From an uncultured Bacilli bacterium (GTDB lineage Bacteria > Bacillota_I > Bacilli_A > RF39 > UBA660), in assembly GCA_944359055.1 (NCBI GenBank), contig CALVSO010000014.1:1-34645 (forward strand): a stretch of 34,645 nt of DNA. The letters run 5' to 3'. The notes below the pieces were generated by a model. It was not told where the DNA came from. It was given only the letters and a program-made list of their open reading frames with translations, and searched no databases. The position numbers and the translations under genes were made by a program. Shown piece after piece: positions 4,772 to 25,277 of this stretch (position 1 is its first letter; each line of letters starts with the position of its first letter).

Positions 4772-4800
4772 ATTTTAGCATATTTAATATATATTGTCAA
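4772..4800 (-). promoter_or_regulatory. SigA-type promoter of the hypothetical gene
   Basis: TTGACA (4800-4795), 17 nt, TAAAAT (4777-4772) on the minus strand. The -35 box contains the TGA stop codon of gpr (4799-4797). Confidence 0.65.
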
Positions 4801-5807
4801 ATATTATGTAATGCTTCATTAAGACCATTTCCTATTAAATTACTTAGCTTTTCAATTAAAAAGTCAACTTCTTTTGGTGTTACCATCATATTGTATCCAA
4901 TAGGTGATAAAACTTCAAATAACAACTGTTTTATTTCTTCCTCTTCTAATGTTCCAACAATTCCTAATAAAGTTTCCTTATCTTTTTTATTTAATTCAAT
5001 TTTTTCTTTCAAATAATTAGGACTATAGGCCATTAATTTATTTAAAGGGTTGTTTATATTTAATTTTGAGTAAGTATAATGTTTATGCATATAATTTATT
5101 GTATCACTTACAATTGTAATTGCATCAACAACAGTAGGAACACCAATAGCTATACAAGGAATATTTAATGTTTCATAACTTATTTCTTTTCTACTATTGC
5201 CTATACCACTTCCAGGATGAATTCCTGTATCAGTCATTTGAATTGTTTTATTTACCCTTTCTATTGACTGACTAGCTAAAGCATCTATTAAAATAATAAA
5301 ATCTGGTTTAAACTTATCTACTATACTAGATATTACATCACTAGTTTCTAAACCAGTTTGACCCATAACACCTGGTACTAAAACTGATACCCTTCTATAT
5401 TCATCAGATAATTCATCTAATTCAAATAAATGATTAGTAACTATTATATTATTTATTGTTAAAGGGCCTAAAGAATCTGGTGTCGATTTAGAATTACCTA
5501 AACCAATTATTAAACAACTAGCTTTTTTATCAATTTTTAATAAATTTAATAAATTATTTAATTCTCTTACAAATACTTTTTTTACTTTCTCATAATTACT
5601 AGAATCTGTCACATCATCAAATTCAATTGTTATATAATTACCCTTTTTCTTGTTAATTAGACTACTTACTTTATCATCAACTACTACATTAGTAATCTTA
5701 ATATTTTCTTCTATTTTCTCTTTACTAATATTTTTGATATCTTTAATCGATTCGATTGCTAAATCGGTTCTTATTTGATATTTTGACAAATCAACACTAT
5801 GTTTCAT
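4797..5807 (-). CDS. gpr: Germination protease GPR (spore endopeptidase, family A25)
   Basis: GPR is made in the forespore and cuts small acid-soluble spore proteins at germination. The protein (about 336 residues) shows the family start VDLSKYQIRTDLA, the motif GLGNSKSTPDSLGP with a catalytic-type Asp, and TDTGIHPGSGIGNSRKEIS. Length matches the family at slightly under 370 residues. I start at ATG 5807 because GGTGA at 5817-5813 lies 5 nt upstream; the ATG at 5819 overlaps it. It lies divergent from rpsT, the same arrangement as in Bacillus. Its presence implies a sporulating ancestor or present spore formation. A SigG-like promoter is suggested upstream. Confidence 0.95.
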   Translation of the reverse strand: MKHSVDLSKYQIRTDLAIESIKDIKNISKEKIEENIKITNVVVDDKVSSLINKKKGNYITIEFDDVTDSSNYEKVKKVFVRELNNLLNLLKIDKKASCLIIGLGNSKSTPDSLGPLTINNIIVTNHLFELDELSDEYRRVSVLVPGVMGQTGLETSDVISSIVDKFKPDFIILIDALASQSIERVNKTIQMTDTGIHPGSGIGNSRKEISYETLNIPCIAIGVPTVVDAITIVSDTINYMHKHYTYSKLNINNPLNKLMAYSPNYLKEKIELNKKDKETLLGIVGTLEEEEIKQLLFEVLSPIGYNMMVTPKEVDFLIEKLSNLIGNGLNEALHNI

Positions 5808-5822
5808 AACATTCACCATTAT

Positions 5823-6235: not shown

Positions 6236-7138
6236 ATGAAGGGTTGGTTAGCACTTATTCCATTATTAATTTTGTTATGTTTAACTTTTATTTATAAAAA
6301 TGAAATTGCTACTTTTTTAGTCCAAAAAATAGTATATTCAAAAGAAGTGTATTTAAATGAGCCTAATGATTATGCATTAGATTATAAATTTGAATATGTT
6401 CAAACAACAAACGATTTTATAGCTAATGACAAACAAGAACTAATTAATATTTTATATACTTTTTTAAATAATGGTGAAGATAATTTTGCTTTTTATTGTG
6501 ATTATAAAGATTGCATAAATGATGTTAACTATTTAACTGATTCTAATGAAATGGTTAATTTAAATAATTACATTCATCCTTACAATAGTTATCGACAAGC
6601 AACAGTAACATCTAATTCATTTGATAAGATAGAAGTTACTATTGAAAAATCTTATAGTGATGATGTAATTAAAGCTACTAATCAAAAAGTTGATGAAATA
6701 ATGAAAGAAATTTTAAATGATAATATGACAGATAGAGAAAAAATAATTGCAATCCATAATTATATAGTTGAAACAACTATTTATGATACAGAATATATAG
6801 ATGCTAACTTAGAAGATGTTGATAATCCTTCACATAAAGCAATCGGTCCACTTTATTATCATAAAGCTTTATGTGGTGGTTATACTGATGCTATGGCTTT
6901 ATTCTTAAACAAATTAAAAATTCCAAACTATAGAATTTCTAGTGAAAGTCATATTTGGAATTATGTATATTTAGATAACAATTGGTACCACATTGATTTA
7001 ACTTGGGATGATCCAATTACTGATGATGGTAGCAATTTAGTTTTAGATAACTTTTTATTAATTACTACTGAGCAATTAGAAAATTATCACACTGGATATC
7101 ATAATTATGATAAATCAGTCTACATCGAGGCTAAATAA
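6236..7138 (+). CDS. Membrane-anchored transglutaminase-like (cysteine peptidase fold) protein
   Basis: The 300-residue protein has an N-terminal membrane anchor (about residues 4-20) and a C-terminal transglutaminase-like domain. The catalytic triad is visible: Cys in KALCGGYTDAMALFL, His in SESHIWNYVYLDNNWYHID and Asp in IDLTWDDP. Such surface proteins may act as peptidases or cross-linking enzymes on wall or envelope substrates; the substrate cannot be told. AGGTGA lies 6 nt before ATG. The gene follows rpsT but a terminator separates them. Its stop overlaps the end of the convergent kinase gene by 24 nt. Confidence 0.8.
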   Translation: MKGWLALIPLLILLCLTFIYKNEIATFLVQKIVYSKEVYLNEPNDYALDYKFEYVQTTNDFIANDKQELINILYTFLNNGEDNFAFYCDYKDCINDVNYLTDSNEMVNLNNYIHPYNSYRQATVTSNSFDKIEVTIEKSYSDDVIKATNQKVDEIMKEILNDNMTDREKIIAIHNYIVETTIYDTEYIDANLEDVDNPSHKAIGPLYYHKALCGGYTDAMALFLNKLKIPNYRISSESHIWNYVYLDNNWYHIDLTWDDPITDDGSNLVLDNFLLITTEQLENYHTGYHNYDKSVYIEAK

Positions 7139-8269
7139 TTCATAAATAGGAAGTTCAATAATTACTCTTGTTCCTTTTTTTAAAATTTCATACTCTAATT
7201 TACCATTATGAGCATTTACAATTTCAATTGATAATGACACACCTAAACCTGTGCCATTTTTTTTAGTTGTATAAAATGGTTCTTTTATTTTTTCTAATTC
7301 ATCTTTAGGTATTCCCATACCATTATCTTCAATAATAATTTTAAAGTTTTCTTCTATCTTATAATCAATACTTATTACCCCATTTTTTTCTATTGCTTCA
7401 ATGCTATTTTTAATCATATTTATTAGTACTTGATTTAATCGATTATAATCTCCTAAAACAAACACTTCATCTTCACAAATATTATGTTTAAACTTAATAT
7501 TTTTTTCTTTTAAAACAGGTTCAAATTGATTAACAACATCTTCTAATAATAAATTAATATCCAATATTTCTTTTTGAATTTTTATTTTATTCATCGATAA
7601 AAAATCTTGTAATAATAATAATATTTTGTCCATTTCCTCTTTTAATATATCAATATATCTTTCATGATCTTTATTATTAATATCAAACATATCTAAATAA
7701 CTTTTACATACAGCTATTGGATTTTTTATTTCATGAGTAATTTTAAATAAAGATGATCTTAATTGAGTTTCTTTTTCTAATTCTTTTAAATTCATATGCA
7801 ATTTTATTATATCCTCACCTTTTTTATATAAGAATATAACTAAATAAGTAGTTATCACAAAAATAATACTAGTTAATAAATTAAAATTAAAAATAAATTT
7901 AATTATTAAAAATAAATTTAAAATATTTTTTTGATAAAAAATATATATTAAATAATATATTAAATATTCTATTATATAAATTATTATATTAACATCAGCA
8001 TAATTCATTAAAATTATAATAGTAATAATAATACTTACTAGAGTTCTTTTTTTTATAAAAGCAAATATAAGTGGAATATTAAATAAGATTATTAAATCAC
8101 TATTACCATTATTATAAATAATTAATAAGTATAAACTAGATAAAAGAGCTAAATCTAAAAATAATTTGTTTTGCTCTTTATTTATGTTGTTACTATAAGT
8201 ACAATAAAATAAATAAACTATTAAAGGAAATAATAAAATAATAATATTAAATAAAACTTGATATAACAT
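7115..8269 (-). CDS. Orphan membrane sensor histidine kinase, possibly a sporulation (Spo0A phosphorelay) kinase
   Basis: The 384-residue protein has about five to six membrane segments (5-145) with almost no extracellular loops, then a HisKA domain with phospho-acceptor His179 in KITHEIKNPIAV and an HATPase domain: N-box NMIKNSIEAI (284-293), DNGMGIP (315-321), GTGLGVS (339-345). This polytopic, loop-poor design recalls Bacillus KinB. No response regulator is next to it, as for phosphorelay kinases. Two Spo0A-box-like sites sit over its promoter. The phosphorelay role is an inference from those sites plus gpr nearby. AGGTGA lies 5 nt before ATG. Confidence 0.88.
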   Translation of the reverse strand: MLYQVLFNIIILLFPLIVYLFYCTYSNNINKEQNKLFLDLALLSSLYLLIIYNNGNSDLIILFNIPLIFAFIKKRTLVSIIITIIILMNYADVNIIIYIIEYLIYYLIYIFYQKNILNLFLIIKFIFNFNLLTSIIFVITTYLVIFLYKKGEDIIKLHMNLKELEKETQLRSSLFKITHEIKNPIAVCKSYLDMFDINNKDHERYIDILKEEMDKILLLLQDFLSMNKIKIQKEILDINLLLEDVVNQFEPVLKEKNIKFKHNICEDEVFVLGDYNRLNQVLINMIKNSIEAIEKNGVISIDYKIEENFKIIIEDNGMGIPKDELEKIKEPFYTTKKNGTGLGVSLSIEIVNAHNGKLEYEILKKGTRVIIELPIYELFSLDVD

Positions 8270-8285
8270 TTAACTCACCTAACCC

Positions 8286-8329
8286 ATTATATTACATTTT
8301 TTTTAATTATTTTGTCGAATCATGTCGAA
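8286..8329 (-). promoter_or_regulatory. Promoter with tandem Spo0A-box-like sites before the histidine kinase
   Basis: TGTCGAA occurs twice on the plus strand at 8313-8319 and 8323-8329, exactly 10 bp apart, matching the Spo0A core TGNCGAA. On the minus strand, the first site gives a -35-like TCGACA (8318-8313), separated by 21 nt from TATAAT (8291-8286). A 21-22 nt spacing is known for Spo0A-activated SigA promoters such as spoIIG. Spo0A control is an inference. Confidence 0.5.
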
Positions 8330-8357
8330 AAAAAATAAAAAGTAACCAAAGTTACTT
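8329..8357 (-). terminator. Terminator of the EIIB-like gene
   Basis: Minus-strand stem AAGTAAC (8357-8351) and GTTACTT (8346-8340), 4-nt loop, then a T-rich run 8340-8329. It overlaps the end of the coding region and abuts the second Spo0A-like box. Confidence 0.75.
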
Positions 8358-8669
8358 CAAATCATCAATAAATTTTTTTATTTTTTCTGCTTGCTCTCCT
8401 AAAATAATTTTTAATTGATTATCAATTTCAACTATTCCTTGAGCACCTATTTTTTGAATACCTTCTTTATTTACTTTTTTAGTATCCTTAAGTTCAACTA
8501 TAAATCTTGATTTATTAGTTTCATAATTAATAATATTATCTTTACCACCTAAATACTCTACTAATTTATTAGCTTCTAACTTAAAATCTTTTTGTTTTGA
8601 TTTTACAATTGCAACAGCAATAATAATAGCGATAACTAATATTATTATATATTGCCATATATGTCCCAT
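8352..8669 (-). CDS. Membrane-anchored PTS EIIB-like protein without the phosphorylated cysteine
   Basis: The 105-residue protein has an N-terminal membrane segment (about 5-22) followed by a glucose-family EIIB-like domain: LGGKDNIINYE (40-50), IQKIGAQGIVEID (71-83), LKIILGEQAEKIKKFI (86-101). In active EIIB domains a cysteine is phosphorylated (as in the E. coli IIBGlc motif NLDACITRLR); here that position aligns with Asn52, although Arg55 is kept. It cannot take part in normal sugar phosphotransfer. No EIIC or EIIA gene is near. It may be a sensor or scaffold; function unknown. AGGTGA and TATAAT (8691-8686) precede the ATG. Confidence 0.72.
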   Translation of the reverse strand: MGHIWQYIIILVIAIIIAVAIVKSKQKDFKLEANKLVEYLGGKDNIINYETNKSRFIVELKDTKKVNKEGIQKIGAQGIVEIDNQLKIILGEQAEKIKKFIDDLK

Positions 8670-14787: not shown

Positions 14788-15804
14788 TTAATCTTTCTTT
14801 ATAAACATACTATCGCCAAAACTAAAGAAACGATAGTTATTTTTTATTGCTTCATTATAAGCATTCATAATATATTCTTTAGTGGCAAAAGCACTTACTA
14901 ACATAACTAAAGTTGATTTAGGCAAATGAAAATTAGTAATTAAACAATCAATAGCCTTAAATTTATATCCAGGATAAATAAATATATCAGTCCATCCACT
15001 ACATTCTTTAAATTCTCCATATAAATTCATTATCGTTTCTAAAGTTCTAGTAGAAGTTGTTCCCACTGCAATAATTCTTTTTTTATGGTTATTTAATATT
15101 GCAGCAGTTTCTTTACTCATCATATAAAATTCACTATGCATTTTATGTTTAGTCACATCTTCTACATTGACTGGTTTAAATGTACCTAACCCAACATGTA
15201 AAGTTATTGGAACAATTATAACACCTTTTTCTTTTATTTTAGATAATAATTCATTAGTAAAATGTAATCCTGCTGTAGGTGCGGCTGCACTACCCTCATT
15301 TTTAGCATAAATAGTTTGATATCTATTTTGATCTTTTAATTTTTCATGAATATAAGGTGGTAGTGGCATTGTTCCTAACTCATCTAATATTTCATATAAA
15401 ATACCATCATAAATAAATTCAAATATTCTTATTCCTTCATCTTTTACTTCAACACATTTCACTTTTAATTTATCACTGAATTTAATTACTGTACCAACTT
15501 TTACTCTTTTAGCAGGTTTTACTAAACATTCCCAATTATTGCCAACTTCTTTCAACATTAATATTTCAATAACAGCGTTAGTTTCCTCTTTAACACCTAT
15601 TAATCTAGCTGGAATTACTTTTGTATCATTAATAACTAATATATCATCTTTTTCTAGATAATCAATTATATCAGTAAAATGTTTATGTTCTATTTTACCT
15701 GTTTCTTTATCTAAAACTAATAATTTGGATGCATCTCTTTTTTCTAAAGGAGTTTGCGCTATTAATTTTTCTGGTAAATAATAATCAAAATCATCTGTTT
15801 TCAT
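14788..15804 (-). CDS. queA: S-adenosylmethionine:tRNA ribosyltransferase-isomerase
   Basis: QueA moves the ribosyl part of S-adenosylmethionine onto 7-aminomethyl-7-deazaguanine in tRNA, making epoxyqueuosine. The 338-residue protein has the family start [20 protein letters not shown], then [52 protein letters not shown] and [17 protein letters not shown]. Length is normal. Its ATG overlaps the ruvB stop (ATGA), as in the Bacillus ruvA-ruvB-queA-tgt operon, but no tgt follows here. Confidence 0.97.
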
Positions 15805-24587: not shown

Positions 24588-25277
24588 ATGAAACCAATTA
24601 TTGGAATAATAGGAAATGAAGATTATTCATATTTAGAAAAAAATTGTATTAGTGTATTTGAAAATTATAGAAAAGCTATTATTGAATATGGTGGGATTCC
24701 AATTTTAATACTACCACCACAATTAATTAATTATCATGAAACACAACCAAGAGACAATATTAATTTGACTGGAGAACAAAAAGATGATTTAATTAGACAA
24801 ATTGAATTATGTAATGGTATTTTAATTCCAGGAGGTCATAAAATATTTGAATATCATAAATTTATATGCGACTATTGTAATAAAAATAATATGCCATTGT
24901 TAGGTATTTGTATGGGTATGCAGACTATGTGTAATTATAATAATAACAATATTAATATAAAAGTTGAAGATGGTTCTCATAAAAGTGATGATGATTATGT
25001 TCATTATGTTAAAATTAAAAAGGATTCTAAATTATATGATATTTTAAGTAAAGATAAAATATTAGTTAATAGTTTTCACAATTATCAAGTTCCTAATAGT
25101 GGAGATTATAAAACAGTTAGCACTTGTGATAATATTATTGAAGCTGTTGAAAAAAAAGAAGACCTTTTCAACATTGGTCTACAGTGGCATCCTGAAAAAA
25201 ATTATGATAAAGATTTAAATAGTAAAAAAATATTTAAAGCATTCATTGAAGCATCTAAATTATACTATCACGAGTAA
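24588..25277 (+). CDS. Class I glutamine amidotransferase-like hydrolase (peptidase C26), paralogue 2
   Basis: Paralogue of the preceding gene, about 229 residues from ATG 24588 (MKPIIGIIG), chosen to match paralogue 1; ATGs at 24570 and 24585 are alternatives. The same catalytic parts are kept: LLGICMGMQTMCNY and QWHPEKNYD. The DNA is a patchwork: about 110 nt over the catalytic His region (25122-25233) differ from paralogue 1 at only about three positions, while other parts have diverged clearly, which suggests gene conversion. The 3' end overlaps yqeH convergently by 23 nt. Confidence 0.83.
   Translation: MKPIIGIIGNEDYSYLEKNCISVFENYRKAIIEYGGIPILILPPQLINYHETQPRDNINLTGEQKDDLIRQIELCNGILIPGGHKIFEYHKFICDYCNKNNMPLLGICMGMQTMCNYNNNNINIKVEDGSHKSDDDYVHYVKIKKDSKLYDILSKDKILVNSFHNYQVPNSGDYKTVSTCDNIIEAVEKKEDLFNIGLQWHPEKNYDKDLNSKKIFKAFIEASKLYYHE

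Follow-up and report, generated by a model that had tools for sequence, protein, structure and literature searches.

Tandem Spo0A-like boxes at the promoter of an orphan histidine kinase gene suggest direct Spo0A feedback in Bacilli of the order RF39

Results

The orphan kinase and its neighborhood

The window analyzed here, a stretch of 34,645 nucleotides, is contig 14 of a 48-contig, 1.34-Mb genome of an uncultured Bacilli bacterium. Its minus strand carries, at positions 7115-8269, a gene for an orphan membrane histidine kinase of 384 amino acids with Pfam HisKA (ITHEIKNP) and HATPase_c domains. An AlphaFold model and a hydropathy scan place about six predicted transmembrane or hydrophobic helices in the N-terminal part, and no PAS domain was matched in the protein by Pfam. 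The closest named records among its database relatives are metagenome-assembled genomes of uncultured Bacilli and Candidatus Faecisoma merdavium; NCBI places the genus Candidatus Faecisoma in Mycoplasmatota incertae sedis, and we take it to belong to what GTDB calls the order RF39.

An earlier sequence-only reading of this DNA had called the kinase KinB-like, and this holds in part. The closest solved sequence is that of Geobacillus KinB (3d36, E 1.6e-25), but it is tied with ThkA (3a0r). The top ranks of a profile search were ThkA, KinB and ZraS, and a fold search returned histidine-kinase cytoplasmic domains throughout, KinB included. The kinase may share with KinB a topology of six or so predicted transmembrane helices and no PAS domain (the N-terminus itself is not comparable), and it is likewise an orphan; unlike KinB, it has no kapB-like partner in an operon. 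With the KinD model of NCBIfam it scored 94.6 bits against a cut-off of 775, and it fell far below every NCBIfam sporulation-kinase cut-off, so that it is sporulation-kinase-like at most and orthology to any named Kin protein is unsupported. The orphan state noted earlier was borne out: among the simple histidine kinases of the genome, this one alone has no adjoining response regulator, each of the others adjoins one, and three further kinases are hybrids with receivers of their own. Spo0A, in turn, is one of the few regulators of the genome without a neighboring kinase.

In most genomes of the genus, the upstream neighbor of the kinase is a gene for a membrane-anchored PTS EIIB-like protein (8352-8669, minus strand) of 105 amino acids, with a single transmembrane helix and a lone EIIB domain (PF00367). 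The EIIB-like gene lies outside the proposed Spo0A-kinase circuit. Between the two genes a weak terminator-like hairpin (AAGTAAC..GTTACTT) followed by a T-run occupies positions 8340-8357 of the minus strand and is kept in congeners with paired changes; a strict terminator scan, which requires three G-C pairs, did not report it. Because this conserved element intervenes, read-through from the EIIB-like gene is unlikely to be the sole source of kinase transcripts, and the promoter is probably dedicated to the kinase. Further along the window, positions 4797-5819 encode the GPR germination protease (TIGR01441, 353 bits), which adds to the evidence for a spore former.

The kinase promoter is built like spoIIG

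TGTCGAA occurs twice on the plus strand, at 8313-8319 and 8323-8329, 10 bp apart with the spacer TCA, exactly as the sequence-only reading had described; on the minus strand, which codes for the kinase, the array therefore reads TTCGACA-TGA-TTCGACA. The proximal box (8313-8319, minus strand) contains the -35-like hexamer TCGACA and lies 21 nt from the -10 element TATAAT (8286-8291, minus strand), which is aligned as TATAAT across the genus and the family; the spacing claimed earlier was thus exact. The distal box (8323-8329, minus strand) is 31 nt from the -10, matches the consensus exactly and is kept in all 17 readable members of the genus. The TATAAT ends 16 bp ahead of the ATG of the kinase (8267-8269), and a Shine-Dalgarno sequence, AGGTGAG, is found at 8274-8280 of the minus strand. 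Judging from the position of the -10, transcription is predicted to start at or beside the Shine-Dalgarno sequence, leaving a leader of about 11 nt. A strict promoter scanner proposed TCGACA-18-TAATAT, which is merely a shifted reading of the same promoter element.

The spoIIG promoter is a classic Spo0A-activated SigA promoter, with 0A boxes overlapping the -35 and a spacing of 21-22 nt to the -10. The kinase promoter shares with this class, as known from B. subtilis, boxes in the same orientation 10 bp apart, a box over the -35 at 21 nt from the -10, and no normally spaced -35 at about 17 nt. It differs from spoIIG in driving a sensor kinase instead of spoIIGA-sigE, in having near-perfect boxes where those of spoIIG are weak, and in the place of the strong pair, which most of the family has one helical turn further downstream. 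The parallel with spoIIG drawn in the sequence-only reading was strengthened by the spoIIG promoter of the genus itself, where ATGACA is conserved in 15 genomes at 21 nt from a TATAAT -10 and the box is weak.

The array exceeds chance and belongs to the kinase gene

Three single copies of TGTCGAA are present in the window and 1.05 were expected from shuffling, in line with the few anticipated earlier; single-site statistics are uninformative. For the exact pair, a first-order Markov model gave an expectation of 1.4e-5 per window and 5e-4 per 1.34-Mb genome, and four exact pairs were found genome-wide at three loci: the kinase, a gene flanked by dnaN and recF, and an interval between two cold-shock genes. 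Among the matches listed for 18 congeneric genomes, 46 were exact, whereas a backward (uncomplemented) control pattern gave 0. The suggestion that a phased pair lies beyond chance was thereby upheld.

The sequence-only reading had staked itself on conservation of the boxes upstream of orthologous kinases, and they are conserved. The kinase is present in 18 of 18 genomes of the genus; upstream of it, all 17 readable congeners keep the tandem boxes and the -10, with variable letters in the spacer. A sample of 288 genomes from 102 genera, taken across the order, yielded orthologues at E <= 1e-60 in 152 genomes spanning 66 genera. We read 130 upstream regions of these orthologues, 100 of them as short stretches, and every one carried the box pair, oriented as the coding strand, with no more than 4 mismatches in 14 positions (0 mismatches in 44, 1 in 42 and 2 in 31, that is, 117 with at most 2); these orthologues, mostly from metagenome draft assemblies, are non-independent samples, though they come from about 66 genera. 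With a reversed control the best match had 3 mismatches, in one case, and 0 of 130 regions reached 2 or fewer. The tandem array therefore belongs to the kinase gene and not to this window alone. The Markov expectation, the genus counts against their control and the order-wide conservation against the reversed control together rule out a chance repeat. About half of the genomes of the order, most of them with Spo0A, have no kinase orthologue at E <= 1e-60, absence from a draft genome being weak evidence; since so many Spo0A-bearing genomes are without the kinase, the loop proposed below is not essential for Spo0A function.

Promoter geometry falls into two registers

A -10 element was sought 13-37 nt behind the first box across the orthologue promoters, and was found at 21 nt in 90 promoters, at 31 nt in 21 and at other distances in few. 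When the promoters were anchored on the -10, matches to the 7-mer box peaked at exactly 11, 21 and 31 nt, and weakly at 41 nt, a sharpness that was not imposed by the search beyond a window of +/-1. The box 21 nt from the -10 is the most conserved register (mean 6.8 and 6.4 of 7 matches). In the 142 promoters scored, the second strong box stands at 11 nt in 96, at 31 nt in 42 and in neither class in 4, the classes having been assigned with help of the -10 search. All 17 promoters of the genus of our genome fall in the 31-nt register, so that the partner box lies one helical turn upstream in this genus, as in spoIIG, and one turn downstream in most of the family. TTGACA-like hexamers at 16-18 nt from the -10 were at or below background in 138 promoters, which rules out a hidden -35 there, whereas such a hexamer stands at 21 nt in 88-95% of the same promoters.

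Spo0A and other loci with 0A boxes

The search for spo0A that the sequence-only reading had called for found the gene. A Spo0A_C domain is encoded in 18 of 18 genomes of the genus and in 273 of 288 of the order, and Spo0A is present in 149 of the 152 genomes that carry the kinase, the other three being incomplete. The recognition helix, SRVERSIRHAV, differs by conservative changes only from SRVERAIRHAI of the B. subtilis protein (1lq1); the published contacts of Spo0A are with G2, C4 and G5 of TGTCGAA (PMC3485338). At the spo0A promoter itself (L001:2303-2319), TTCGACAAAATTAGCTA, which includes TTCGACA, is invariant in 17 loci of the genus, implying conserved autoregulation.

Boxes were also found elsewhere. 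A gene for a ComK homologue (PF06338) lies between dnaN and recF. In 12 of the 12 congeneric promoters listed, its array (L160:4860-4886; contig C10, 37859-37885) has two or three boxes in phase, and 12 nt separate the end of the last one from an extended -10, TATAAG. In B. subtilis, comK is a direct target of Spo0A (PMC3297582). Two- or three-box arrays also lie between the two cold-shock genes (L161:6025-6051 on contig C17, and congeners); they are oriented the opposite way, an ordinary-looking promoter lies downstream of them, and a LysM gene follows. We know of no Spo0A target that corresponds to this interval. Imperfect pairs on contig C3 at 14993-15009 and 24771-24797 (L006, L008) lie upstream of two paralogous clusters that look, by eye, camelysin/TasA-like, which suggests possible Spo0A control of matrix-like proteins.

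The spoIIAA gene has a single exact TGTCGAA. It is followed directly by sigF at L194:2468-3487, with no spoIIAB between them; this order is consistent with a survey in which RF39 was predicted to sporulate with spoIIAB and spoIIE reduced or absent (PMC10868615). The loci of the best matches to a sigF model showed no tandem pair, the best match in our own genome being a sigG-like gene and not sigF.

Phosphorelay parts

Spo0F and Spo0B, which the sequence-only reading had also asked to be sought, were not recovered as such. No PF14689 match for Spo0B was found in our genome (about 92% complete), whereas the B. subtilis positive control was matched, and there was no clear candidate for Spo0F; a stand-alone receiver was found. 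This protein of 124 amino acids is encoded between rpmA and obg (L178:1489-1863, contig C7), the interval that presumably holds spo0B in B. subtilis. Inspected by eye, it looks more like the receiver of the HPt protein on contig C18 than like Spo0F, and it may represent either a Spo0F-like intermediate or a gene that has been displaced. The genome also encodes HPt/hybrid relay proteins. Without Spo0B and a clear Spo0F, phosphotransfer, if any, is probably direct or via another receiver. One SpoVT/AbrB-domain protein was found in our genome, and some congeners have an additional one of 86 amino acids; the 185-codon frame of our own suggests that it is probably SpoVT rather than AbrB. The absence of Spo0B or AbrB from a draft genome is weak evidence. 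The gene behind rlmB is SigH-like, judging from gene order.

Discussion

The data argue that a SigA-type promoter of the spoIIG kind, under Spo0A control, drives an orphan KinB-like kinase, and that Spo0A~P probably feeds back directly and positively on this kinase. A feedback of Spo0A~P on its own kinase had been proposed in the sequence-only reading, and the boxes, their spacing and conservation, the Spo0A helix and the orphan state of the kinase all support it; that Spo0A binds in vivo, that it activates rather than represses, and that the kinase passes phosphate to it, we infer. A dimer of Spo0A~P would occupy the two boxes of like orientation one helical turn apart, with the proximal box in place of the -35. 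With 21 nt between the -10 and the next -35-like position, RNA polymerase by itself should initiate poorly, and Spo0A~P beside region 4 of sigma would compensate for this. The kinase would then phosphorylate Spo0A, directly or via a receiver other than the Spo0F/Spo0B pair, and so close the loop. The near-perfect boxes of the kinase, set against the weak box of spoIIG in the genus, suggest that the kinase would already respond to little Spo0A~P, ahead of the committed sporulation genes.

The sign of the regulation is the weakest structural point of this model. In B. subtilis, comK is repressed through its R1 box (PMC3297582), which lies over a normally spaced -35, so the position of a box does not by itself set the sign, and comK, spo0A, spo0F and kinA show band-pass responses (PMC3297582; PMC3182994). 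Spo0A~P might likewise bind the array and repress the kinase; the outcome would be negative feedback, or a band-pass that is on at low and off at high Spo0A~P. The strong pair of most family members (96 of the 142 promoters scored) extends over the -35 and the spacer, where a bound dimer could block polymerase; in the spoIIG arrangement it lies over the -35 and upstream, and this difference counts against our model. Yet a bound dimer would find no usable -35 at 16-18 nt to block, the 21-nt spacing is that of the spoIIG promoter of the genus, the homologue of a classic activated promoter, and the distance from the array to the -10 is fixed to the single nucleotide, as expected for a contact with sigma. 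Activation is favored on account of the missing normally spaced -35 and the spacing common to spoIIG, and we regard repression as unlikely.

The kinase could be mainly a phosphatase of Spo0A. It might also be controlled by Spo0A and serve some other receiver, which would make the array a case of ordinary downstream regulation with no feedback. The partners of orphan kinases cannot be read from sequence, the relay proteins and the stand-alone receiver offer other routes, and half of the Spo0A-bearing genomes do without the kinase. Against this, the only simple kinase without a neighboring regulator coexists with Spo0A, itself among the few regulators that have no kinase beside them; its nearest solved relative is KinB; clostridial orphan kinases act directly on Spo0A (PMC11210211); and Spo0A is missing from only 3 of the 152 kinase carriers, all of them incomplete genomes. 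We judge service to another pathway slightly less probable again than repression. That the array is a chance repeat, or the site of another regulator that binds in tandem, we consider highly improbable. The putative attribution to Spo0A is drawn from sequence features, but the consensus, the 10-bp tandem spacing and the helix residues fit Spo0A (PMC3485338), TTCGACA is conserved at the spo0A promoter, spoIIAA has an exact TGTCGAA, and the genus and order-wide controls exclude chance. Direct positive feedback of Spo0A~P on the kinase thus remains our preferred reading.

Positive control of sporulation kinases by Spo0A~P is itself familiar, since in B. subtilis Spo0A~P raises the expression of kinA and kinB (PMC3269414; PMC5733473). 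That loop is indirect: repression of AbrB releases SigH, which acts on kinA, and SinI/SinR or AbrB mediates the effect on kinB (PMC3269414; PMC5733473). Here, unlike kinA and kinB, a 0A array directly overlaps a SigA-type promoter. The clostridial orphan kinases, which act on Spo0A without a phosphorelay (PMC11210211), offer another likeness in that an orphan kinase and Spo0A are present and no Spo0B was detected; a literature search turned up no account of clostridial orphan kinase genes with conserved 0A arrays, which is not proof that there are none.

Much more tentatively, the sporulation decision of the whole order may rest on a direct loop between Spo0A~P and the kinase that replaces the AbrB/SigH detour, with Spo0A activating from over the -35 and the 21-nt spacer, in a MerR-like manner, in most of the family, and from the spoIIG-like register in other lineages, including the genus studied here. 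To our knowledge, such a placement over the -35 and an over-long spacer has not been described for Spo0A. If true, the register of an activator would have switched by one helical turn on orthologous promoters. The two promoter registers are a natural experiment on the contact between Spo0A and RNA polymerase.

Models of B. subtilis sporulation weigh 'instantaneous' feedback against delayed, indirect feedback (PMC3269414). It is a standing question what signals reach Spo0A in bacteria other than Bacillus, and most of all in uncultured gut Bacilli whose genomes measure 1 Mb. A promoter that would link Spo0A directly to a kinase gene, and that is conserved across about 66 genera, points to the likely input kinase and predicts a fast bistable switch.
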